NCBI GenBank assembly: GCA_030433275.1
Contig: JAUILK010000035.1
Coordinates: 1 to 35,467, forward strand
Reading direction: 5' to 3'
Source of the DNA: Gammaproteobacteria bacterium
Lineage (GTDB): Bacteria > Pseudomonadota > Gammaproteobacteria > Nitrococcales > Nitrococcaceae
Length of the DNA: 35,467 nt
The translations under genes and the position numbers were made by a program. A model generated the notes under the pieces. The model made no database searches. It had not been told where the DNA came from and was given only the letters and a program-made list of their open reading frames with translations. Shown piece after piece: positions 17,786-31,909 of the stretch. The stretch's first letter is position 1. Every line of letters starts with the position of its first letter.

Positions 17786-18586
17786 TTAAGGCCTCACGTC
17801 ACCCTGACCCAGACGATCGAGAAGCTTACGAATATAAATCGATGGCACTGCATAAGAAATCCCGCTCGGCTGCTCGATTGCCGCGGCCAGCGCTGCCTCC
17901 TTAGTCGCTTTGACGAAGACTTTATTAATGACCCCGATCACCGCCCCGCTCTGCGGATCATACAACGGACTGCCACTATTGCCAGGGTAAGCGGTCGCAT
18001 CCAATTGATAGACGCGAAACGGTGACCGCAGACTTTTAATCATTCGAGCGTCGAGCTGGCGCGAATGATCCACCGGTATGGCGACCGGGGTGATTGCGGA
18101 GATGATTCCACGGTGGGTAACGGAATAGAGCCCAAGAATGGCGCCGATAGGAAAGCCGGTAAACGCGTATAGCTCGCCTTCACGCACATGCTTATTTGCA
18201 GCAATCGCCAACGGCGGAAAAGGGGCGCCCGCGACTTCGAGTACAGCCAGATCATGCGCCCGATCGAATTCAATACGTCGCGCCTTACGCACCTCCAAAC
18301 GATCGCTGCGACGTTGGAACACAGCAAGGTATTCGCGGCGCGCCGAGTTCACACTTTTGGGAAGCACATGGGCGTTGGTAATAAGGCGCCGGCCGTTGCC
18401 CACCGCAAACCCGGTCCCCAAAAATTGGGCCGGTGGCCGACGGGTGGATTGGTAGGTCCCCACCCCGACAACGGCGGCCTTGACGCGCTCGACCGTATCG
18501 GCAAGCTCGGCATGAGCATCCATTCCCCCACCCAACAGACCAATCGCGGCAAAGACAATGACGGCAAAGCGTAAAGTAGCCATCAT
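17786..18586 (-). CDS. Exported trypsin-like serine protease
   Basis: Predicted secreted or periplasmic S1-type protease, 266 residues from the double ATG at 18586/18583 (AAGG nine bases upstream). The N-terminus is a signal peptide with a likely cleavage after AHA (residues 24-26). The catalytic triad is visible: His73 in LITNAHV, Asp112 in RAHDLAV, and Ser204 in YPGNSGSP. There is no PDZ domain, so it resembles the protease part of HtrA/DegP without the regulatory module. It is transcribed divergently from the VanZ-like gene and is the first non-housekeeping gene beside the tRNA unit. Substrate unknown. The frame extends upstream to 18706, but that would hide the signal peptide. Confidence 0.8.
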   Translation of the reverse strand: MMATLRFAVIVFAAIGLLGGGMDAHAELADTVERVKAAVVGVGTYQSTRRPPAQFLGTGFAVGNGRRLITNAHVLPKSVNSARREYLAVFQRRSDRLEVRKARRIEFDRAHDLAVLEVAGAPFPPLAIAANKHVREGELYAFTGFPIGAILGLYSVTHRGIISAITPVAIPVDHSRQLDARMIKSLRSPFRVYQLDATAYPGNSGSPLYDPQSGAVIGVINKVFVKATKEAALAAAIEQPSGISYAVPSIYIRKLLDRLGQGDVRP

Positions 18587-18646
18587 GGGATTGTACCTTG
18601 AATATCGGACAACTCGGAGGCTAGGCGTTTTATCCATTAAGCCCAA

Positions 18647-18676
18647 CTGGCACAGCAAAACCATTTCGTATATAGA
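18647..18676 (+). promoter_or_regulatory. Candidate promoter for the VanZ-like gene
   Basis: CTGGCA (18647-18652) and TATAGA (18671-18676) with an 18-base spacer form a modest sigma-70 promoter in the 133-base divergent gap between the protease and VanZ-like genes. Each box matches four of six positions. Confidence 0.3.
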
Positions 18677-18719
18677 ATCATTATCCTCCACAACACAACC
18701 GGGCACAGAGGAGCGTCAC

Positions 18720-20018: not shown

Positions 20019-21207
20019 TTTGACCCACAGCAGCGGCGATGCCGCACCTGGCGCCCAGGAGTCCATCCCGATTCAGGACTTGGCTGCAACGCTGCTCACC
20101 CACGAGCGCGATTTTGCTGCTTTACGGACTGAGTGGAACCTGCTCGCCGAAATGCACCCGACCCCCAGCGCTTTTCTCCGCTACGAATGGGCCGACGCGG
20201 CCTGGCAGTGGCAACACATGAATGCCACCTTGGCCTTACTGGCCGTACGCCTCGACAATGGTGACCTAGCCGGGCTGGCGCCTTTGGTGCAAACCCGGGA
20301 TCGAGAAGCGGGTGTCCCATTTCGCCGCCTGGAACTGCTGAGCGTACCGGATAACCAATTTGCCGACATCCTCTTCGCCCCTGGCCATCTCACTGCGGTT
20401 GCCAGAACCATTGCCTGCTGGCTAAAGGAAAATCCCCATCGCTGGGATCAGCTCACCCTGCGACTACTGCATAACGAATCCCCGACGGCGCGGGCATTGT
20501 TCAACGCACTGGAACAGATGGGACTGCTCACAGCCCAACAAACCGGCACGGTGAACTATTCGATCGATCTAACCGGCACCTGGGAAAACTACTATCGCAG
20601 CCGCAGCCGACGTCTCAAAAAAGGCAACAACCTGGTGGCAAACCGACTGCATCGAGCGGGGGAATTGCGACTAACCTGCCTGAAAGGATCGGAGATCGAC
20701 GAACAGACCGGCAACACCCTGCGCCACTTGTCGGCCATCAGCTGGAAACAGACTACCGGCACTACGCTCGATCAACCCGGCCCGAAAGCTTTCTTCGATC
20801 GCCTTCTGCAGCACGGCCGTCGAGAGAAATGGCTCTCCGTATGGCTGCTCACGCTCGATACTCGACCGGTAGCGGCCGAGTTACAGCTCGAGTACAAGGG
20901 CCTCGTACACGGGTTGCGCTCGGACTTCCGCGCCGACCTGGAAGCACTTTCGCCCGGCACCTACCTCAATTGGAAGATCATAGAAGGCCTATTCGACCAA
21001 GGCCTGGAACTTTATTTTCTAGGCCCTGGGGAGAACCCGTATAAGCGGCGCTGGACTGAGACCGGCACCCCATTGACGCGCCTCGATGCCTGGAGCTCCA
21101 GTCTCCGGGGACGGTTGCTGGGAATCCTGCGGCAATGGCTGCGCCCCGCTCTACGAAACGCCCGCGATCGCCTGCAAAAGCTCTACCACCGAACCCGCCG
21201 CTTATGA
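19969..21207 (+). CDS. BioF2/CelD-type GNAT acyltransferase
   Basis: A 412-residue protein of the Acetyltransf_6 (BioF2-like) type found in cellulose and other exopolysaccharide loci. The C-terminal half (about 185-370) has the family pattern: RLKKGNNLVANRLHRAGEL, HLSAISWKQTTG, then RPVAAELQLEYKGLVHGLRSDF and GTYLNWKIIEGLFDQGLE. It probably acylates a sugar or lipid-linked substrate in the cytoplasm; the substrate is not visible. The start is uncertain: ATG 19969 overlaps the VanZ gene by 50 bases, ATG 20005 by 14, and neither has a good ribosome binding site; the second is at least as plausible. It ends convergently with the synthetase gene, overlapping it by 6 bases. Confidence 0.75.
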   Translation: MTKPLTFPHATRMKRPDLTHSSGDAAPGAQESIPIQDLAATLLTHERDFAALRTEWNLLAEMHPTPSAFLRYEWADAAWQWQHMNATLALLAVRLDNGDLAGLAPLVQTRDREAGVPFRRLELLSVPDNQFADILFAPGHLTAVARTIACWLKENPHRWDQLTLRLLHNESPTARALFNALEQMGLLTAQQTGTVNYSIDLTGTWENYYRSRSRRLKKGNNLVANRLHRAGELRLTCLKGSEIDEQTGNTLRHLSAISWKQTTGTTLDQPGPKAFFDRLLQHGRREKWLSVWLLTLDTRPVAAELQLEYKGLVHGLRSDFRADLEALSPGTYLNWKIIEGLFDQGLELYFLGPGENPYKRRWTETGTPLTRLDAWSSSLRGRLLGILRQWLRPALRNARDRLQKLYHRTRRL

Positions 21208-23037
21208 GGCCCCGGACGCCACGGACAAACCGCCACGCTTGATCCCACGCTCCCGCGTTTGGAACCACTGTTCCAGCATCATCAACGTCCACACCAATGT
21301 CCCGTAATAAGCAGGGTGCGCGTGCAGGTGTTGCGACATGAGCTCGTCGAGAAACCGCGGGCGTATGATGGCGCGGCTACGCAATGCCGCCAAACTGTCT
21401 CCCGCCAACTCGTGGAGTGCCGGCTGCTGAGTCAGCCAAACACCGAATGGCAGTCCGAAGCCGTGCTTTTGCTTGCCGATCACAGGCTGCGGCAAAAATT
21501 CCCGTAGCGCGGCTTTGAAAAACGGGCGCAACTTCGTGCGATTCACCTTCCAAGCCGCCGGCAACCGTAGCGAAAGCGCGATGATATCATCGTCGAGCAG
21601 AGGGAAAGCGGTGTCCACCCCCGCCAACGCACAGGCACCACGAACCTTGACCAGATCATCGTCCGCGAGAGTGAACTTAAGATCCCGGGCCAGCATGCGG
21701 TTGAGCATACTTTGCGCCCGCGCCGACCAGTATACGTCCCGAATCATCTCCACTGGTTGGCTCGTATCGAGTTCGGCCAGAAAGTCCGCATGCAAGATGG
21801 TTTCGAGCCCTATCCGCATGAGCAAGTTGTAGCTTTCGAGTCGCTCAGGCATGGGCTGCTGCGCCTGCCGCAAATAGCTACGCAGCTTGCGTACTCCCGG
21901 CCAACCCGGTAGCCGATGCCCGAGGGGACGCAACAAATGCCGCTGCACACCGCCTGGCAGGCGATCCATCAGGGTAAACACCCACTGCTTGGCGTAGCGT
22001 GTATTTCCGCCGAAGAGTTCATCGCCGCCATCACCACCCAGCAAAACCTCGACCCCGCTCTGAAGGGCCAGCTTGGCGCAATAATAGGCCGGAATAACGG
22101 AGGCATTGCCGAAAGGCTGATCGTAACCCGCTGCGATAGTAGGGATAGCGGCCACAACATCCGCAGGCGTCACATAGTATTCATGGTGATCGGCATCGAA
22201 ATGCCGAGCGGAGATCTGCGCATAGCTGGTCTCATCGTAACCTTGAGCGTCAAAACCAATGGAAAAGGTGCGCGGCCGTTCGCCGGTCACCTCCCGCAGC
22301 ATCCCCGTTACAGTCGAACTGTCCGTGCCACCACTGAGAAAAGCCCCAACCGGGCGGCCGTCGAGTGAACGCTCCACAGCTGTATACAAACAGGTTCGGA
22401 ACTCGGCGCCGGTCCGTGACCAGGAAAGGGTGGCGTCCTCGGTGTATTGCGGCCGCCAATAATCCCATACTGAGCAACCGTCCGCGTCGAACTGCAACCC
22501 CTGACCGGGTTGCAGGCGATGCATCCCCCGATAGATGGTCCCAGGCGACGGCACGACATGAAAATAGAGATAGTTCAGGATAGCCTGCGGATCGGGTTCC
22601 GTAGCGAGCGCCGGATGCGCTGCCAGCGCCCCCAAGCTTGTGGCAACTACAAGTCCACCAGCCACTTCGGCATAGTAAAGCGGCCAACGGCCCAAGCGAT
22701 CCACCAACGCCAGCCCGGCGCCGCTGCGCCGATCGAAAAGCAGCAAGGCATGACTGCCCCACAGCGCCTGACAGGCCTCTCGACCACTTTCCCGAAAAGC
22801 CCCCAGAAACGTAGCTGCCGCCTCAGCGCTCGAGCCACCTCCGGTCTGGCCATAGCGCACCCGGCCTACTCCTGCGACTACGAAATCCGCTCGTTCCAGC
22901 CAAAATGCATCCCCGCCGGCTGCCAATCCGCCAGATCCCTCCAAGAGGCTGTACCGCGCCCCTTCGGCAAGCCACTGCCGAGACGCGCCACCTTTCGCAT
23001 CGACCGGCCGCCCCAATTGCCCCCAGGCACCGTACAT
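21202..23037 (-). CDS. Asparagine synthetase-like protein lacking the glutaminase cysteine
   Basis: A 611-residue AsnB-fold protein. The C-terminal ATP-pyrophosphatase domain is intact, with SGGTDSS (235-241) and GGDGGDELFGG (about 334-344). The N-terminal Ntn domain is recognisable (PLYYA, ATSLGALAAHP, YFHVVPSPGTIYRG), but the protein starts MYGAWG where active amidotransferases have MCGI, so the nucleophilic Cys2 is replaced by Tyr. ATG 23037 is firm: AAGGAG sits nine bases upstream. It should adenylate a carboxylate but cannot hydrolyse glutamine. That is the state of lasso peptide C-proteins; use of free ammonia is the alternative. It is divergent from the sulfotransferase and lies near a PqqD/HprK operon. 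Confidence 0.85.
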   Translation of the reverse strand: MYGAWGQLGRPVDAKGGASRQWLAEGARYSLLEGSGGLAAGGDAFWLERADFVVAGVGRVRYGQTGGGSSAEAAATFLGAFRESGREACQALWGSHALLLFDRRSGAGLALVDRLGRWPLYYAEVAGGLVVATSLGALAAHPALATEPDPQAILNYLYFHVVPSPGTIYRGMHRLQPGQGLQFDADGCSVWDYWRPQYTEDATLSWSRTGAEFRTCLYTAVERSLDGRPVGAFLSGGTDSSTVTGMLREVTGERPRTFSIGFDAQGYDETSYAQISARHFDADHHEYYVTPADVVAAIPTIAAGYDQPFGNASVIPAYYCAKLALQSGVEVLLGGDGGDELFGGNTRYAKQWVFTLMDRLPGGVQRHLLRPLGHRLPGWPGVRKLRSYLRQAQQPMPERLESYNLLMRIGLETILHADFLAELDTSQPVEMIRDVYWSARAQSMLNRMLARDLKFTLADDDLVKVRGACALAGVDTAFPLLDDDIIALSLRLPAAWKVNRTKLRPFFKAALREFLPQPVIGKQKHGFGLPFGVWLTQQPALHELAGDSLAALRSRAIIRPRFLDELMSQHLHAHPAYYGTLVWTLMMLEQWFQTRERGIKRGGLSVASGAS

Positions 23038-25033: not shown

Positions 25034-25249
25034 TCATCTAGCCCAACTGAATGATTTCATCTCAGCCCCAGCCTTGCTTTGGGCTCCCGAATACCGGGTC
25101 TTTCGGCATGCGGCGATCTCAAGTGGCCTGCCCGGATTCTGATGCGCGCCTACGGCAGGCCCGGAGAACTCCACCCTGCGAGGCCGCCACCCATGAACTC
25201 GCCGCGCATTTCCGAGACACACCTCCAGGGCGGTCAAGGTAAGAATCAC
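25034..25249 (-). CDS. Possible small coupled ORF (71 residues)
   Basis: This GTG-started frame overlaps the nucleotidyltransferase stop as GTGA and ends 8 bases before the methyltransferase start, so it would fill the gap in the operon exactly. The product is basic with two cysteines, no signal peptide, and a Trp-Ala-Arg end; I recognise no family. No ribosome binding site is visible, codon third positions are not strongly biased, and an 8-bp inverted repeat (25125-25132 with 25154-25161) lies inside. It may be a real small peptide gene or non-coding leader sequence; a lasso-type leader/core pattern was not seen. Confidence 0.25.
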   Translation of the reverse strand: MILTLTALEVCLGNARRVHGWRPRRVEFSGPAVGAHQNPGRPLEIAACRKTRYSGAQSKAGAEMKSFSWAR

Positions 25250-26346
25250 CGTGGCGCGGGAGTCGCCACTTCGCGTGCCACCGCCTTACGCAGCAGATGT
25301 CGAATCAGGCGCAGCGGGGGCATTTTGAGCCAATGCGAGCGCACGTACAACGCAAAGCGCGCCACGCGTATATCCACTCCATTGCAGCTCGGATGCTGAG
25401 GGCGCAGACCGCGCTGGAGCAGTGCAAGCATCAGACTCCGCTGCAGCGGCGGAGGCGCAAAGACCTCGACCCGTCGCCGTAGGGCCGAAGGCACCGGCGT
25501 ATCCAACAAACTCACCAAACAAGTAATGGCGTAGAACAGCGGGCGCCCGAGCATCAGCTGATCGGCCCGCTTCACAAGCGTGTCCCAAAACGCCGGATCA
25601 GCGGATAATTGCCGCAACAGCAGATCCAAATCCGAGAGATCCCGCAGCCCATAGGCCAACTCACCGTCATGAAAAAGGTGGCTAGCACTGTGCAACACCA
25701 TATCCGGAGGCGAGAGCGTATAGACATCTTCGGTACCTGCCTTGGGCCAAGGCACCACAGCCCTTAGCAAAAGCGCCGCCGAAGGCCGCAGCCGCCCGCT
25801 CAGCGGCAGAATGTTGTGATGAACATCCACCGTGGTACCGCGCTGATGATGCTCCATGGGCGGCAGCTCGTGCATCCACTCCCGATAATAACGCTGGTCG
25901 TAGGCATCGAGGTGGGTAGGCGCCCAGCCAGCCAACATCAGCGCACTCTCCACCGCCGCAAGGCGGTTACGCGGAACCATGATATCCACGTCCTCGAAGA
26001 AGCGACCGTGAACCGGGTTCAAACCAGCATGTACGTAAGCCGCGCCTTTGAGCAGTACCAGCGGTACACCCGCCCGGCGCAGCGCCTGGCGAAGGCAGGT
26101 TATCTCGTAGCGGGTTTCACGGTGGCAGCATTCGGCTTTACGCGCCGCCCAACGCAAGTGGGCACGCGGCGCGGCCGGCAATGGGGCGTTCGGTCCAAGC
26201 TGTCGAGCAAGCCAATCAAGCCGGCCTAGCAGCCCGCTCGCCCGGGCTTGCTGAACGAGCAGATCCCAATCGCCCTCACTGAGCCGAACCATCCGCGATG
26301 GCTGCATCAATACACGAATCAGCAGCGGCTGCGGACGATGCCTCAT
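25246..26346 (-). CDS. Nucleotidyltransferase family protein (HPr-rel-A associated)
   Basis: A 366-residue protein of the NTP_transf_5 type. The core is VLLKGAAYVHAGL (98-110) followed by GRFFEDVDIMVP (114-125), in which Asp119 and Asp121 form the metal-binding DxD pair. Later residues DVHHNI and SPPDMVLHSASHLF also fit the family. Such proteins accompany HprK-like kinases in the HPr-rel-A cassette and in paeninodin-type lasso clusters; their substrate is not generally known. ATG 26346 overlaps the kinase stop as ATGA, indicating coupling; the frame extends to 26442 inside the kinase gene. Confidence 0.8.
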   Translation of the reverse strand: MRHRPQPLLIRVLMQPSRMVRLSEGDWDLLVQQARASGLLGRLDWLARQLGPNAPLPAAPRAHLRWAARKAECCHRETRYEITCLRQALRRAGVPLVLLKGAAYVHAGLNPVHGRFFEDVDIMVPRNRLAAVESALMLAGWAPTHLDAYDQRYYREWMHELPPMEHHQRGTTVDVHHNILPLSGRLRPSAALLLRAVVPWPKAGTEDVYTLSPPDMVLHSASHLFHDGELAYGLRDLSDLDLLLRQLSADPAFWDTLVKRADQLMLGRPLFYAITCLVSLLDTPVPSALRRRVEVFAPPPLQRSLMLALLQRGLRPQHPSCNGVDIRVARFALYVRSHWLKMPPLRLIRHLLRKAVAREVATPAPR

Positions 26347-27260
26347 GAAGCATTTGCCTCGGTCGCCGAGGTAGCCGTAAGCTCGTCGAGCACTATTAAA
26401 GCCTGATCCAAGGAGCCGATGGTGAGAGAGTACGGCTCGCAACGCGCGACCGTATCGGCAAGCAACTCGAAGCCGGTTATCCCAAGCTCGGCATAGTTAA
26501 AAGCGGATTGGGCGGCATTCATAAAAGCGTACGTCCGGCCCAATCGCTGCAGCCGGGTCTTTTCACCAGGTTCGAATTGAGGCACAACGAGCCATCGTGG
26601 CGTGGCAAGTTCCACCAGCCGAGCGACGGCGGGGGTGGGCGGCACCATAAGACGCACGGTGCCCTTCGCTGTATTATGCGATGCTGGCGAGAGCACGGCC
26701 TGGGGGGCGAACCGCCGCACCACCTCGATCGATTCGTTCTTCAAGCTCACGGGCCGGGCCAAACCTTGGACTTTCCCATCCTCCAGACGGAGAAGCGTTA
26801 GCTCGTCAGAGAGTAAACGCCAGCCCGAGAGCGCCAGCCCCGCGGTTAGCGTACTCTTTCCGGCACCGGACGGCCCTGGCAGAATCAGCGCTCCACCGTC
26901 TCTTTCCAAAACCGCGGCATGCAGAATGAGGTAATCCTGCACGTGGTTGGCGATGCACCAATTCAGACCCCACTCGAACATAGGATAAGCTTGGTCGGCT
27001 GGTAACGGCCAGAAAGGCCGCTGCCCATCGAGCTCGAAGACTGCCTGCGGTTTCCACCAACGTCGCGCTCGAATGGTGATGCTGAAATCAGCAAAGGCGC
27101 CATCGGCCAACGGGAAATCAGCGTACATCTGTACCATAGCCGAGGCGAGCGCACGGAACCGGCTATAGAGACGCACGGTAAAGGGAAACAGGCGCAAACC
27201 GAGCCCCTCTCCGCGCAGCCGGCGCCTGAGCTCCGCCCCCCCAAGCTCGCCGATCAGCAT
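26343..27260 (-). CDS. HprK-related kinase (HPr-rel-A type)
   Basis: A 305-residue protein related to the kinase domain of HPr kinase/phosphorylase. It has ILHAAVLERDGGALILPGPSG in adjoining pieces: His114, then Walker A GPSGAGKST (129-137), then the acidic SDELTLL (151-157). There is no regulatory HprK N-terminal domain; the first 100 residues differ. No HPr or PTS gene is in view, so the substrate is probably not HPr. In paeninodin-type lasso clusters related kinases phosphorylate a peptide serine, a possible model here. It overlaps the PqqD gene by 7 bases and the nucleotidyltransferase by 4, so the three are translated together. Confidence 0.85.
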   Translation of the reverse strand: MLIGELGGAELRRRLRGEGLGLRLFPFTVRLYSRFRALASAMVQMYADFPLADGAFADFSITIRARRWWKPQAVFELDGQRPFWPLPADQAYPMFEWGLNWCIANHVQDYLILHAAVLERDGGALILPGPSGAGKSTLTAGLALSGWRLLSDELTLLRLEDGKVQGLARPVSLKNESIEVVRRFAPQAVLSPASHNTAKGTVRLMVPPTPAVARLVELATPRWLVVPQFEPGEKTRLQRLGRTYAFMNAAQSAFNYAELGITGFELLADTVARCEPYSLTIGSLDQALIVLDELTATSATEANAS

Positions 27261-27541
27261 CCTGTTTCCCGGCTTGCAAGTCCCGCTTGTTCCAGCCTTG
27301 TCAACAGCTCCGCTGGCTCCTCATCAACCAATTCGCGGTCAAGTAGCGCGAGGAGGTCGCCGACAGGTACCGGACCAACCGTCAGGCAATCCAGTATTTT
27401 GAATACGACCACATCAAAGCGGAACGTCTCCCCGGAGTCGATCCGGTAGGCAATTAGCCCGTCTTCCCAGCGGCAGGTCCGCACAAGCGGATCAACGCTG
27501 GCACACCAACGCTCCGGCGCGCCCCCGCCAGAACCGCCCAT
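27254..27541 (-). CDS. PqqD-family protein (HPr-rel-A type)
   Basis: A 95-residue PqqD-like protein. PqqD folds bind leader peptides and present them to modifying enzymes (the RRE function). The family pattern is visible in WEDGLIAYRIDSGETFRFD (25-43), followed by VFKILDCL and a helical C-terminus rich in Leu and Glu. ATG 27541 shares one base with the stop of the upstream gene (TAATG). The closest named group from gene order is the HPr-rel-A PqqD protein. It implies that a peptide or protein is modified, but the partner is not proven. Confidence 0.8.
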   Translation of the reverse strand: MGGSGGGAPERWCASVDPLVRTCRWEDGLIAYRIDSGETFRFDVVVFKILDCLTVGPVPVGDLLALLDRELVDEEPAELLTRLEQAGLASRETGC

Positions 27542-28206
27542 TAAGCCCAGGTGGTCTCGAAGTAGCGCTTGATATCCTCAGCGTACCAACGGTCCCCCCC
27601 CGGCGACGGCGAATAATATCCTTGACGGGTCCACTGCCGCCACATTTCCTGCACCGTCTCTACCGGCAACGGCCGCGTCAAACCGCTCTTGGCATTAAGC
27701 ATAGCGGCGACAAAGTATGCCCCCATTCGATAGGGGTCCTCCTTGTCCCCAGGAAGATGCAGCACACTCATAAGGGACAGCTGCTCCGGCCGCGGCACCT
27801 GGAAATGTTCACCCCAGGCAACGAGGTCGAAAAACGGCGTTCCCCCTTCGAACGCGATCTCGGATTGCCCCGACAACATACCCTCCTCGCTGCCCTGAAG
27901 ATCGATGCTCGGAGCACCTCTTCCCCCACCTTCTGCAACGAAGGCCGGCGACCCCGGCTTACAGCTGATAGGCCACTCAGCCGGGTGATTTTTCCAGAAT
28001 CCGGGCGAGCGCCCACTACACGAAGGCGTAGCCTGCGCCGTACCGCTGCCCACCGATGCGTTGGAAGCAGCCGCCCCCAATCGCGGACGTAAAATGAAAA
28101 ACGCTGGGACAGCCGCTGCGGCCGCCGTGGCTACTCGGCGCCGGCTGCGATCAACCGCCCCGCGGTTTGCATCGCCCCCGTTTTCAGTTTGTCGCTCCTC
28201 TGACAT
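27541..28206 (-). CDS. Tat-type exported protein with GFWKNH motif
   Basis: A 221-residue protein and first gene of the four-gene operon. ATG 28206 is firm: GGGAGG lies nine bases upstream; an in-frame GTG at 28239 has no such site. The N-terminus has a twin-arginine pattern (SRRRVAT, 21-27) and then a hydrophobic stretch (about 28-48), so Tat export is likely. The mature part carries CSGRSPGFWKNHPAEWP followed by a second Cys (Cys63 and Cys82), a motif known from various secreted bacterial proteins of unknown role. The C-terminus is rich in Trp and Tyr (EMWRQWTRQGYY, RYFETTWA). No catalytic domain is recognised. Position makes it a candidate substrate of the cassette. Confidence 0.75.
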   Translation of the reverse strand: MSEERQTENGGDANRGAVDRSRRRVATAAAAAVPAFFILRPRLGAAASNASVGSGTAQATPSCSGRSPGFWKNHPAEWPISCKPGSPAFVAEGGGRGAPSIDLQGSEEGMLSGQSEIAFEGGTPFFDLVAWGEHFQVPRPEQLSLMSVLHLPGDKEDPYRMGAYFVAAMLNAKSGLTRPLPVETVQEMWRQWTRQGYYSPSPGGDRWYAEDIKRYFETTWA

Positions 28207-28825
28207 CGAAAGACGCCTCCCGCCTTGAATATCAATCACTAAAATTAACCATCCGCATACCGAAAACCCTCAAGCCCTTCTTCTCATGGCAAGCTTTGTA
28301 AAATTCCGTTCATCCCCAGCCTTCCGACAAGACCTAGACCTGCCTGAACCCGCCGAAGCGCCCAGAGCGAACGGGGCATTTAACAAAAAGCTTCCCTTGC
28401 AGGCATCATATGTTTTCTTTGCAAGAAACAGGCTAAACAAAAAAAATCACTATTAGTCAATAATTTAAAAATTAAAATATGGCCTTACTGTTCCAAACGT
28501 TCAGAATGTGTAAAAGGTTTTGACGCATCGCCAGACGCAAACACAAGATTTCTTTATGCGTTGTGGAAATACTCATCCTACCGCACGGCCCTCCGGCCCT
28601 CTGCAGCCACACAAGCTGCACTCGCGCTCGGAAGCACATGTCGTTACAAGCCGCTGCTGTACCCCGATCGACTCCCCATATACAACCCTCTCCTTCGTAT
28701 TATATAGGCAATACCCGCTTCTTTCGTCACGCCCAGCCAAAACGGGCGGCCAGCAGGGAAAACCAATCTCGCCACGGCATCGCTCGCTACTCTCGATATC
28801 TTTAGTAGCGTACCAAGCCCCCTTT

Positions 28826-30550: not shown

Positions 30551-31909
30551 TCAGAAATTCCGACGCTGGATTGTTCTCCGCATTCCTGTAGCGGTTACCG
30601 GAACGGCGGCTTCGTCTTCTTCCCTTTCCAAAACCTTGGCGGCCGCGGCCGCCTGGGCCTCCCGCCACTCCCGGTGCAGAATCGCGCTGATTCCGACATA
30701 AGCGTAATACATATCGAAATATGCGAAGCTCAAAAAGGCACCAGAGACCATGAAAGGGAGCAGCGATATCTCCATCGCCTTGGCATAACGACCGATCCAG
30801 GCCATATCCTCCGCGTACTTCATACCCCCCAGCCGATGCAGCCGCCAGAGCGTGCCGATCAGCAACGTCATGAAGAGAAGGAAGCCGGCGATGCCGTGCT
30901 GACCGAGCATCTGAAAATAGATACTATGAGCCGCCCGGGTCTGGTTTTCCCAAGAACCGAGAAAATTGGCATAGCTCAGCCAGCGGACCGAGTTGTTGGC
31001 ATATTCGAAGTTGAACCCAGCCCCCAGCAGCGGCCGGTCTTTAGCGATGTTCCAGGCCACCCCCCAGGCCTGAATCCGCTGCATCGCAGACGTGTCTTCC
31101 TTATAATCGAGCGTGCTCTCCTGCCGCTGCACCCACCGCTCCGGCAGATAATCTTTTGCCAACACCAGCACCAGCGCGGCCACCACGGCTATCAGGAACA
31201 TACGCGCACGATAGCGCCAAAACAAGGCGCCCATGACGATCACCAGGCCGAGGAAAGCGCCCCGCGAATAGGTGAAAATCACTGCCGGCACCGAGAGCCA
31301 GAACACCGCGTACAATGCGATTCGAACCGAGCGCCGCGATTCCTCGCGCGCCACCAACAGGGCCAGCGGTAACGTCATGTTCAGCGCTAGACCGATGCCA
31401 TTGTTATCTCCGATGAATGAATTGCCGGGCCCCCAAACCCGAAAGCTACCGCCGGTGAGTATAGAGAAAAGCCCGCCCTTGACCCCGTAGAACCCGATCG
31501 ACAACGCAATAACCACGAAAAGGAGATGGATCCGGAACCGGCCGAAAATCAACATCATGGTCACGAAAGTGAACAAAAAAATCTTGAACACAGCATTCCA
31601 TTGGACCCAGGCGACTTGCGGATACCAAGCAAAAACGGTCGTCAGCGTGAACCAAAAACCCAACAGCAAAAGCAGCACCGTTTCGAAGGTCAAAGGCGGC
31701 GGTCGGCGGTTCTGCGTGAACAGCAAACCCATGATCGTCGCACCGGCAATCCCCTGAGCAAGCGGGTATTGCTGCGCCGCCCAAGTCAACTTGTGCGGAT
31801 TCATATAGCCGAGCCAGGACCAACCGAGAACGCCGATCCACGGCCGCCGGAGAGCGATAACGGCGAGGACACCGATAATAGCGATGATTACCACATCACG
31901 CAGGCCCAC
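30551..31909 (-). CDS. O-antigen ligase-like protein, exosortase A-associated type
   Basis: A 452-residue polytopic membrane protein of the Wzy/WaaL family. The characteristic GYMNPHKLTWA (about 34-44) and KGGLFSILTGGSFRVWGPG with NSFIGDNNGIGLALNMTLPL match the group that NCBI names putative O-glycosylation ligase, exosortase A system-associated. Such proteins polymerise or transfer lipid-linked glycans at the periplasmic face. The start is GTG 31909, seven bases after AAGGAG. It begins a two-gene unit with the beta-helix protein and is divergent from the glycosyltransferase across a 207-base gap. The cytoplasmic C-terminal tail is rich in Ala, Glu and Arg. Confidence 0.85.
   Translation of the reverse strand: MGLRDVVIIAIIGVLAVIALRRPWIGVLGWSWLGYMNPHKLTWAAQQYPLAQGIAGATIMGLLFTQNRRPPPLTFETVLLLLLGFWFTLTTVFAWYPQVAWVQWNAVFKIFLFTFVTMMLIFGRFRIHLLFVVIALSIGFYGVKGGLFSILTGGSFRVWGPGNSFIGDNNGIGLALNMTLPLALLVAREESRRSVRIALYAVFWLSVPAVIFTYSRGAFLGLVIVMGALFWRYRARMFLIAVVAALVLVLAKDYLPERWVQRQESTLDYKEDTSAMQRIQAWGVAWNIAKDRPLLGAGFNFEYANNSVRWLSYANFLGSWENQTRAAHSIYFQMLGQHGIAGFLLFMTLLIGTLWRLHRLGGMKYAEDMAWIGRYAKAMEISLLPFMVSGAFLSFAYFDMYYAYVGISAILHREWREAQAAAAAKVLEREEDEAAVPVTATGMRRTIQRRNF

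Follow-up and report, generated by a model that had tools for sequence, protein, structure and literature searches.

Among the bacterial pathways in which a protein kinase of the HprK type acts on a genetically encoded peptide, the closest described to the locus reported here are the Linear Polyphosphorylated Peptides (LPP) of Bacillota and the phosphorylated lasso peptides. In LPP, according to the accessible part of the published account, a PqqD-like RRE binds the leader in the register of LppA, Ser3 of the core is phosphorylated in a kinase-dependent manner, and no effect of an lppN deletion could be seen (Popov et al. 2026, PMC13381572). In solved complexes of RRE and leader (9X8Z, 9X90), binding is by beta-strand addition. 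The HprK-like kinases of paeninodin, pseudomycoidin and LPP phosphorylate serine, and those of the lasso pathways modify the C-terminal serine of their peptides (PMC9266682, PMC8498205, PMC13381572). PsmN of the pseudomycoidin pathway reportedly attaches hexoses to the serine once it is phosphorylated, with a prior nucleotidylation step not excluded in the parts of these papers available to us (PMC9266682, PMC8498205).

The window analysed here, a stretch of 35,467 nucleotides from a gammaproteobacterial contig, contains four overlapping open reading frames at 25246-28206, all on the minus strand. The first (27541-28206) encodes a protein of 221 aa composed of a Tat-type leader and a GFWKNH domain, which is the candidate substrate and is called the precursor below. 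It is followed by a PqqD-like protein of 95 aa, the presumed leader-binding RRE (27254-27541), by an HprK-related kinase A of 305 aa (26343-27260) and by a nucleotidyltransferase of 366 aa (25246-26346). The coordinates bear out the junctions given in the initial annotation, namely TAATG with one base in common, a 7-base overlap (27254-27260) and a 4-base ATGA, and because the genes overlap they are likely to be translated as one unit. We favour the ATG at 28206 as the start of the precursor over a GTG further upstream at 28239 that is likewise open, because several relatives start with M-[ST]-[DE], as the ATG form does.

By its kinase, with PqqD-like and nucleotidyltransferase genes adjoining, the cassette is the one that NCBI names the HPr-rel-A system (TIGR04352, TIGR04353). 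To our knowledge this cassette has no assigned function, and a literature search on its names found nothing. The assignment of the last three genes to HPr-rel-A stands for the kinase (TIGR04352, E 3.4e-104, 348 bits against a cut-off of 200) and for the adjoining nucleotidyltransferase, a gene that we take to be part of the system and that is also seen in the loci. It does not extend to the PqqD-like protein, whose match to TIGR04353 (PqqD_rel_X; E 6e-5, 23.9 bits) lies below the cut-off of 35, so that it is not a member by that rule.

Both enzymes carry the motifs noted earlier, Walker A GPSGAGKST in the kinase and FEDVDIMV in the nucleotidyltransferase, and their catalytic residues are retained. 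In the kinase H114, K135, D152 and E153 are conserved, the H, K and D being invariant in 21 of 21 aligned sequences, and a kinase profile compared with PDB sequences matched a designed P-loop protein best and HPr kinase (1ko7) second, followed by many ABC ATPases. Divergent kinases (L118-L121) occur without a leader gene. The nucleotidyltransferase matches NTP_transf_5 (PF14907, E 1.6e-53, 182 bits, cut-off 31.2); K100-G101, D119-x-D121 and H176 are invariant in 19/19 aligned proteins, and its model (pLDDT 93) has a MenT-like fold (Z 13.0), with matches to MenT1, ANT(2'')-Ia and LnuA. For the PqqD-like protein, profile comparison of the family supports a PqqD-like fold: a profile of 24 members has the lasso RRE TbiB1 as its best PDB sequence match (E 1.7e-4), the profile of a second branch, which accompanies small precursors, matches TfuB1 (E 3.7e-11), and the two branches match each other (hhalign E 5e-11). 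The Tyr-binding Asp is present in all four small-branch PqqDs and in none of the 37 of the main branch.

The initial annotation had proposed looking for linkage between GFWKNH proteins and the kinase in other genomes, and such linkage is found. The TIGR04352 cut-off was passed in 41/369 sampled genomes of one class and in 61/398 of the phylum. Full-length relatives of the precursor occur in 31 of the 41 kinase-positive genomes of the class and in 0/328 kinase-negative ones, the latter being the informative figure, since the search profile was made from 30 of the 31 positives. At 40 of the 41 loci of this first sample the kinase has a precursor gene next to it, the precursors being picked by a pattern of R[RK] plus a hydrophobic stretch; a direct phmmer search with the window precursor recovers 22 of them. 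The same holds for 79 of 80 named loci, where the leader profile identifies 66 of the precursor genes and the whole class A profile is needed for the other 13; the count becomes 73/74 without overlap, as at least six named loci are on the same contigs as first-sample loci. At eight of these 79 the precursor gene is downstream of the nucleotidyltransferase rather than upstream. In the second sample, drawn from the phylum, a precursor gene is found at 43/48 loci, 13 of the 43 resting on patterns rather than on a profile; the 48 come from 61 kinase-positive genomes, of which 4 belonged to the first sample as well and 9 were left out. No precursor is seen at the remaining 5 of 48 loci and 1 of 80. 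The Fisher tests ignore phylogeny, and L037, near-identical to L036, was left out of A1. The first gene is the fixed partner of the cassette.

At E 0.01 neither Pfam nor NCBIfam has a model that matches the window precursor, and none of 33 precursors scanned matched an NCBIfam model over its cut-off. The leader of the window precursor, from R22 to A46 (RRRVATAAAAAVPAFFILRPRLGAA; 28069-28143, minus strand), belongs to a family seen among relatives. Across 30 aligned relatives the second arginine of the R22-R23 pair never varies and the first is retained in 90% or more, and of 102 class A rows, aligned with [RK]R as the anchor, 98 have RR. By this twin-arginine signal, and with TatC encoded in the genome of the window (231 bits), the precursor is predicted to be a Tat substrate. 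Tat-exported proteins in general (TIGR01409) share with it the [ST]-R-R-x-[FL]-x-K motif and a short hydrophobic stretch, whereas the APVIMTLxSRPxxA stretch marks a specific family: in a two-fold test of a leader HMM (n=109, of which 102 are class A homologues), held-out precursors scored medians of 41 and 36 bits against 4.3 and 3.3 for 26 ordinary Tat signals, of which 6 and 2 reached 10 bits. By these medians, a generic Tat signal was judged an unlikely explanation of the leader. The leader profile does not match 13 of the 80 named precursors, and the proline motif is visible in only 27/102 class A rows.

In the window, P34 sits 13 residues ahead of a possible G-A-A cleavage site predicted by eye; the rule used for cleavage sites tries the P+12 offset first. 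The predicted start of the mature protein, S48 to C63 (SNASVGSGTAQATPSC; 28018-28065, minus strand), is the counterpart of C-[ST]-x-S-G-x-x-S-G-N-x-S in the relatives. In the window precursor the first Cys of this motif is gone and little of the repeat is left; S51, S54 and S62 are candidates for the modified serines. The GFWKNH motif follows at G69-H74 (27985-28002, minus strand). An AlphaFold2 model of the domain has a mean pLDDT of 72.5, with blocks of 74-94 over residues 141-220. For this model Foldseek found nothing in the PDB with E <1, none of 354 chains compared reached Z 2, and the best PDB sequence match of the domain had an unconvincing E of 0.46; these searches argue for a known fold no more than for a new one.

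Behind the common leader we find three types of core: the GFWKNH domain, a variable core ending in C-W-x-S-F, and tiny peptides. GFWKNH was tried as the key feature and rejected, there being 44 precursors without it that are distinct in their first 40 leader residues. Since many cassettes have such precursors and the domain also occurs alone in unlinked Sec-type proteins, the shared element appears to be mainly the Tat-type leader. The initial inference of a modifying cassette with the GFWKNH protein as prime candidate is supported, with this shift of weight from the domain to the leader. Class B cores have a conserved serine close to the C-terminus; four members of this class were found through the C-terminal motif itself, and the count without them is 35/40. 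The C-terminal serine was rejected as a class A modification site, as this residue is not conserved among aligned class A proteins. The peptides of class C, which form the small-precursor branch, are 57-90 aa in total length and carry Y-16, P-13 and I/V-11 in 14/14 leaders. An aromatic residue (Y, W or F) at the place of the Tyr is found in 0/27 class A and 0/35 class B rows with the proline motif, and the window leader, reading AAVPAF where LPP has YxxPxV, lacks the Tyr. As class C was detected through the similarity of its leader, its high leader score is not independent evidence; the kinase adjacency of the matches is. The class is rare, since only 7/398 genomes of the phylum sample contain weak matches, and in at least two of these seven the match adjoins a PqqD-like gene and is of the class B type.

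The linkage, the leader in common, the conservation of catalytic residues in both enzymes, the match of the RRE profile and the conserved serines lead us to propose, with a probability of about 70%, that the cassette is a RiPP-like protein-modification system and the proteobacterial counterpart of LPP. According to this model, whose enzymology is drawn from LPP and the lasso peptides, the first gene would encode the substrate, a precursor that carries a signal peptide of the Tat type. The PqqD-like RRE would bind the hydrophobic part of this signal peptide as a leader and present the precursor to the HprK-like kinase, which would phosphorylate a core serine, most probably one not far downstream of the leader. 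The enzyme of nucleotidyltransferase fold would then add a sugar or nucleotide to the phosphoserine, Tat would export the product, and a signal peptidase or a recurrent trypsin-like protease would remove the leader. By analogy with PadeK, PsmK and LppK, phosphorylation seems better supported than nucleotidylation, and the role of the nucleotidyltransferase is less certain because of the lppN result in the available LPP text. Weighing against the proposal are also the TIGR04353 score of the window's PqqD-like protein, the missing aromatic residue and infrequent proline motif of the main branch, the 13 named precursors that the leader profile misses, the eroded serine-rich motif of the window precursor, the few loci where no precursor is seen and, given where lasso kinases act, the unconserved C-terminal serine of class A.

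The window encodes a trypsin-like serine protease at 17786-18706 (minus strand; PF13365, E 9.6e-24), and such a gene is near the cassette at 18/41 loci (the window and one weak match included) and at 20/80 named loci, as raw counts; it is possible that this protease is the processing enzyme. An exosortase is encoded in 38/41 kinase genomes and in 79/328 others, and as further context the window contains, at 30551-31909 on the minus strand, a putative O-glycosylation ligase associated with the exosortase A system (TIGR03097, 439 bits, cut-off 188). The exported product probably serves exopolysaccharide work.

This setting is also what one would expect if the PqqD-like protein were a Tat proofreading chaperone that shields the signal until folding or modification is complete, with the kinase and nucleotidyltransferase acting elsewhere, for instance on a polysaccharide precursor, and the conserved element is indeed a Tat-type signal peptide. 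However, precursors of only 74 and 82 aa (L055 and L264) leave little for folding, serine motifs are conserved in the cores, and in the LPP and lasso pathways, as far as the available texts describe them, the precursor is the target of PqqD-like RREs and of the HprK-like kinases and NTP transferases that accompany them, all of which makes such a chaperone improbable. The neighbourhood of the exopolysaccharide locus might even be the only tie, the secreted protein being a co-regulated structural or matrix protein, and GFWKNH domains do occur alone in unlinked secreted proteins. We give this very little credence, as full-length relatives are absent from all 328 kinase-negative genomes and the linkage survives both a changed gene order and replacement of the core domain.

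HprK enzymes can also take phosphate off. It is thus conceivable that the precursor is the substrate but that its mark is a nucleotide, AMP or similar, added by the nucleotidyltransferase, with the HprK-like protein serving as a reverse phosphorylase or regulator, and the nucleotidyltransferases matched by the model fit such a role. We consider this unlikely, since the related kinases phosphorylate and, for PsmN, hexose transfer onto phosphorylated serine was reported, though within the accessible text an earlier nucleotidylation is not excluded.

If our proposal of an LPP-like modification system is correct, RiPP-style modification reaches from small peptides of Bacillota to whole Tat-exported Gram-negative proteins, and a signal peptide is a dual-use recognition element. 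The analysis proposes a substrate family for HPr-rel-A, gives conserved candidate residues and ties the cassette to LPP and lasso enzymology. One may speculate further that the Tat signal also serves as the RiPP leader, the same residues being recognised first in the cytoplasm by the RRE-guided kinase and nucleotidyltransferase and afterwards by the Tat translocon, which would restrict export to modified protein. A phosphoserine-linked sugar near the new N-terminus would attach small peptides as well as whole secreted proteins to exosortase-associated exopolysaccharide, in a general Gram-negative system of protein-to-polysaccharide tagging present in over a tenth of sampled genomes. This extension is rather doubtful as it stands.

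Among described systems, the RiPPs of the DUF2063/DUF2282 type resemble the cassette in having a precursor that bears an export signal, but their signal is of the Sec type and no specific RRE motif is reported in the accessible text, whereas here a Tat signal would contain the presumed RRE motif (PMC12710340). The phosphorylated lasso pathways, paeninodin and pseudomycoidin with PsmK and PsmN, share the PqqD-like B1 RRE, the HprK-like kinase and the NTP transferase (PMC9266682, PMC8498205), and their conserved serine near the C-terminus is matched in class B cores; in contrast to these peptides, as described in the available texts, the cores are mostly much longer and not Ser-ended. Of the 40 window ORFs of at least 150 aa, many of them overlapping, 20 were scanned against families, and no lasso B2 (transglutaminase-like) peptidase, SipW-like peptidase or MsbA-like transporter was among the matches listed for these 20. 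An Asn-synthase-like protein at 21202-23037 reaches 111.7 bits against the lasso cyclase model NF033535, far below the cut-off of 525, and with no B2 match and no cyclase over threshold among the matches listed for the 20 ORFs a lasso peptide identity was rejected.

LPP are stated, in the accessible part of the report, to be restricted to Bacillota, and rely on a leader peptidase of the SipW type and on an MsbA-like transporter; the LPP paper does not contain the word Tat (PMC13381572). The four-gene cassette reported here, by contrast, includes neither a signal peptidase nor a transporter gene, its leader is of the Tat type, cores can take the form of a domain of roughly 150 aa, and in the main branch the Tyr is missing. 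Both systems, as far as LPP are described there, nevertheless bring together a discrete PqqD-like RRE, an HprK-like kinase and an NTP transferase, place variable cores behind one conserved leader and lie in polysaccharide loci, and the class C branch shares with LPP both the leader register Y-16, P-13, V/I-11 and the presence of a serine shortly behind the leader (PMC13381572).

The window sequence bears out, base for base, the overlaps that the initial annotation had claimed between the four minus-strand genes at 25246-28206. The first encodes a Tat-type GFWKNH protein of 221 aa, here termed the precursor, and the others a 95-aa PqqD-like protein (TIGR04353 at 23.9 bits, under the cut-off of 35), a 305-aa HprK-related kinase that clears the TIGR04352 cut-off of 200 with 348 bits, and a 366-aa nucleotidyltransferase (PF14907, E 1.6e-53). 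The GFWKNH protein matched nothing in Pfam or NCBIfam at E 0.01; with its aligned relatives, 30 proteins in all, Pfam matched none and NCBIfam one, marginally (E 0.0042). The closest named relative of the kinase, at 91% identity, comes from a Nitrococcus mobilis MAG, and TatC was found in the window's own genome. The surroundings form an exopolysaccharide/exosortase-type locus adjoining rpoBC, where family searches identified an exosortase-A-associated ligase (TIGR03097, 439 bits) and VanZ, GNAT, asparagine-synthase-like, sulfotransferase and methyltransferase proteins. The starts of a protease ORF (minus strand) and a VanZ-like ORF (plus strand) overlap at 18558-18706, so one start codon is probably wrong. 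The asparagine-synthase-like protein (21202-23037, minus strand) begins with MYG rather than MCG, as it does in a Nitrococcus MAG (L122), and thus seems to lack the glutaminase cysteine; judging from this N-terminus, it may form amides independently of glutamine. A relative at locus L039 begins with MTM, its start codon being uncertain.

The linkage of such precursors to HprK-rel-A kinases, which the initial annotation had put forward as a test, recurs in other genomes. Of 369 genomes of the class, 41 have a kinase above the TIGR04352 cut-off, giving a sample of the window and cassettes fetched from 40 other genomes. All but one of these 41 loci, the window among the 40, encode a protein with a leader of twin-arginine type just upstream of the PqqD-like gene; in the exception (L062) the contig starts 567 bases ahead of the kinase. 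The precursors of the 40 loci were chosen by pattern, and phmmer with the window protein alone recovers 22. Across those 369 genomes, a profile of 30 precursors gave full-length matches in 31 kinase-positive genomes, 30 of them profile-building members, and in 0/328 kinase-negative ones (Fisher p 9e-37, phylogeny ignored). Matches including the leader occurred in 43 of the 62 genomes with a kinase match of at least 40 bits versus 0/307 others, and domain-only matches in 5 further genomes. Among the best 80 loci of a named-genome scan, at least 6 of which are contigs already in the first sample, a precursor was present in 79 (66 via the leader profile, 13 only via the whole profile of class A, the precursors with a GFWKNH domain) and was not found in one, L200. 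It lies upstream in 71 and, in 8, 2-3 kb downstream, behind the nucleotidyltransferase. In a phylum sample the kinase cut-off was passed in 61/398 genomes, and 43 of 48 loci examined had a precursor ORF (30 by profile, 13 by pattern). That the linkage survives altered gene order counts against mere inheritance of a neighbourhood.

Three loci (L155, L176, L140) carry two class A paralogues each downstream of the nucleotidyltransferase, and several cassettes of this type have prmC-like or hslV-like genes, named by eye, upstream. In one sampled genome (G296) a second full class A precursor (L112, 6075-6590 region, minus strand) lies on a contig separate from the cassette, so that substrates may be encoded in trans. 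At L114, L115, L116 and L117 a lone GFWKNH domain, unlinked to a cassette, forms the C-terminal side of secreted proteins with Sec-like starts. Divergent HprK-like kinase and PqqD-like genes occur at L118-L121, three of which also have nucleotidyltransferase genes; a Tat leader gene was not found at these loci, and the L121 kinase ORF, possibly a fusion, also matches the PqqD profile.

The precursors fall into three classes. In class A (102 members, near-duplicates removed, rows anchored on [RK]R), RR stands at the anchor in 98/102 and C-[ST]-x-S-[GA]-x-x-S-[GA]-N-x-S-C follows just after the leader; its first, second and third serines are kept in 99/100, 96/101 and 93/102 and its cysteines in 96/100 and 94/100. 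The window precursor retains S51, S54 and S62, with serine replacing the first cysteine. Class B, which has no GFWKNH domain and reaches down to 74 and 82 aa (L055, L264), carries C-[WFYLIMV]-x-S-[FLIYA] at most 20 residues from the C-terminus in 39/44 members, or 35/40 without the four found through that motif, against 0/102 in class A and 3/1666 ORFs of at least 150 aa. Class C comprises 14 peptides of 57-90 aa, as many as three per locus, with an invariant Gly-Ser directly after the leader; in 6/10 loci a more distant HprK-like kinase lies next to them.

By its sequence, the precursor leader is probably distinct from a generic Tat signal. When a leader profile was cross-validated in two halves, the precursors left out, mostly class A and hence homologues, had medians of 41 and 36 bits (at least 10 bits in 53/55 and 51/54); the medians of 26 ordinary Tat signals were 4.3 and 3.3, and 6 and 2 of these reached 10 bits (best 13.7). 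The class C median of 22 bits is not an independent test, because that class was found by leader similarity. Class C leaders contain Y-x-x-P-x-[IV] in 14/14, with Tyr at -16 and Pro at -13 relative to an A-x-A/G site predicted by a crude rule that favours the offset yielding P-13. In the Linear Polyphosphorylated Peptides (LPPs) of Bacillota, the RRE, a PqqD-like leader-binding domain, binds Y-16, P-13 and V-11 of the precursor LppA, D70 of LppB holding the Tyr (PMC13381572, in part). This Asp is present in 4/4 class C PqqD-like proteins versus 0/37 of the main branch, the one that accompanies classes A and B. The proline motif occurs in 35/44 class B rows and only 27/102 class A rows, and these 62 rows have no aromatic residue at the Tyr place. 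Class C leaders share the LPP YxxPxV register; its Tyr is absent from the window leader. By the same cleavage rule, the first Ser of the predicted mature part is at position 4 or 5 in 13/14 class C peptides, at 1-4 in 33/35 class B rows and scattered over 1 to 10 in class A (27 rows); the LPP phosphorylation site is given as Ser3 (PMC13381572, in part).

The top PDB matches of the PqqD-like profiles are lasso RREs, TbiB1 for the main branch (E 1.7e-4) and TfuB1 for the class C branch (E 3.7e-11), and hhalign aligns the two branches at E 5e-11. In the kinase, H114, G132, G134, K135, D152 and E153 are invariant in 21/21 sequences, distant branches included, and its profile matches HPr kinase/phosphatase 1ko7 in the PDB (E 1.2e-4, ranked second after a designed P-loop protein); lasso kinases are described as needing a His-Lys-Asp-Asp motif (PMC9266682, in part). 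The nucleotidyltransferase keeps K100-G101, D119-x-D121 and H176 in 19/19. Structural comparison of its model (pLDDT 93) gives Z 13.0 over 179 residues with MenT1 and Z near 10 with ANT(2'')-Ia and LnuA, the best Foldseek E-value being 1.3e-3. The nucleotidyltransferase homologue PsmN is reported to attach one or two hexoses to the phosphoserine of pseudomycoidin (PMC9266682 and PMC8498205, both in part), and deletion of lppN, for the LPP NTP transferase, is reported to have no visible effect (PMC13381572, in part).

Of the 41 kinase-positive genomes, 38 encode an exosortase (PF09721 at an E-value of at most 1e-10), versus 79/328 others; it shares a contig with the kinase in 15, 29-108 kb apart in 12 and more than 0.7 Mb in 3. 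LPP loci are placed in capsular polysaccharide loci (PMC13381572, in part). A trypsin-like protease lies near the cassette in 18/41 and 20/80 loci, as raw counts that include any background.

On this analysis, the probable substrate is the precursor, on which an RRE-guided kinase and nucleotidyltransferase would act. Among the matches listed in literature searches no paper dealt with the cassette, those listed being on lasso peptides, LPPs, RREs and other RiPPs, and the main texts of the RRE-Finder paper and a 2025 RRE survey contain no HPr or kinase term. Neither an over-threshold lasso cyclase nor B2 was seen among the 20 window ORFs scanned. Since some defining features of LPP and lasso systems are absent, we class it as a new variant rather than a member, one that would share its working principle with the LPP and phosphorylated lasso pathways.
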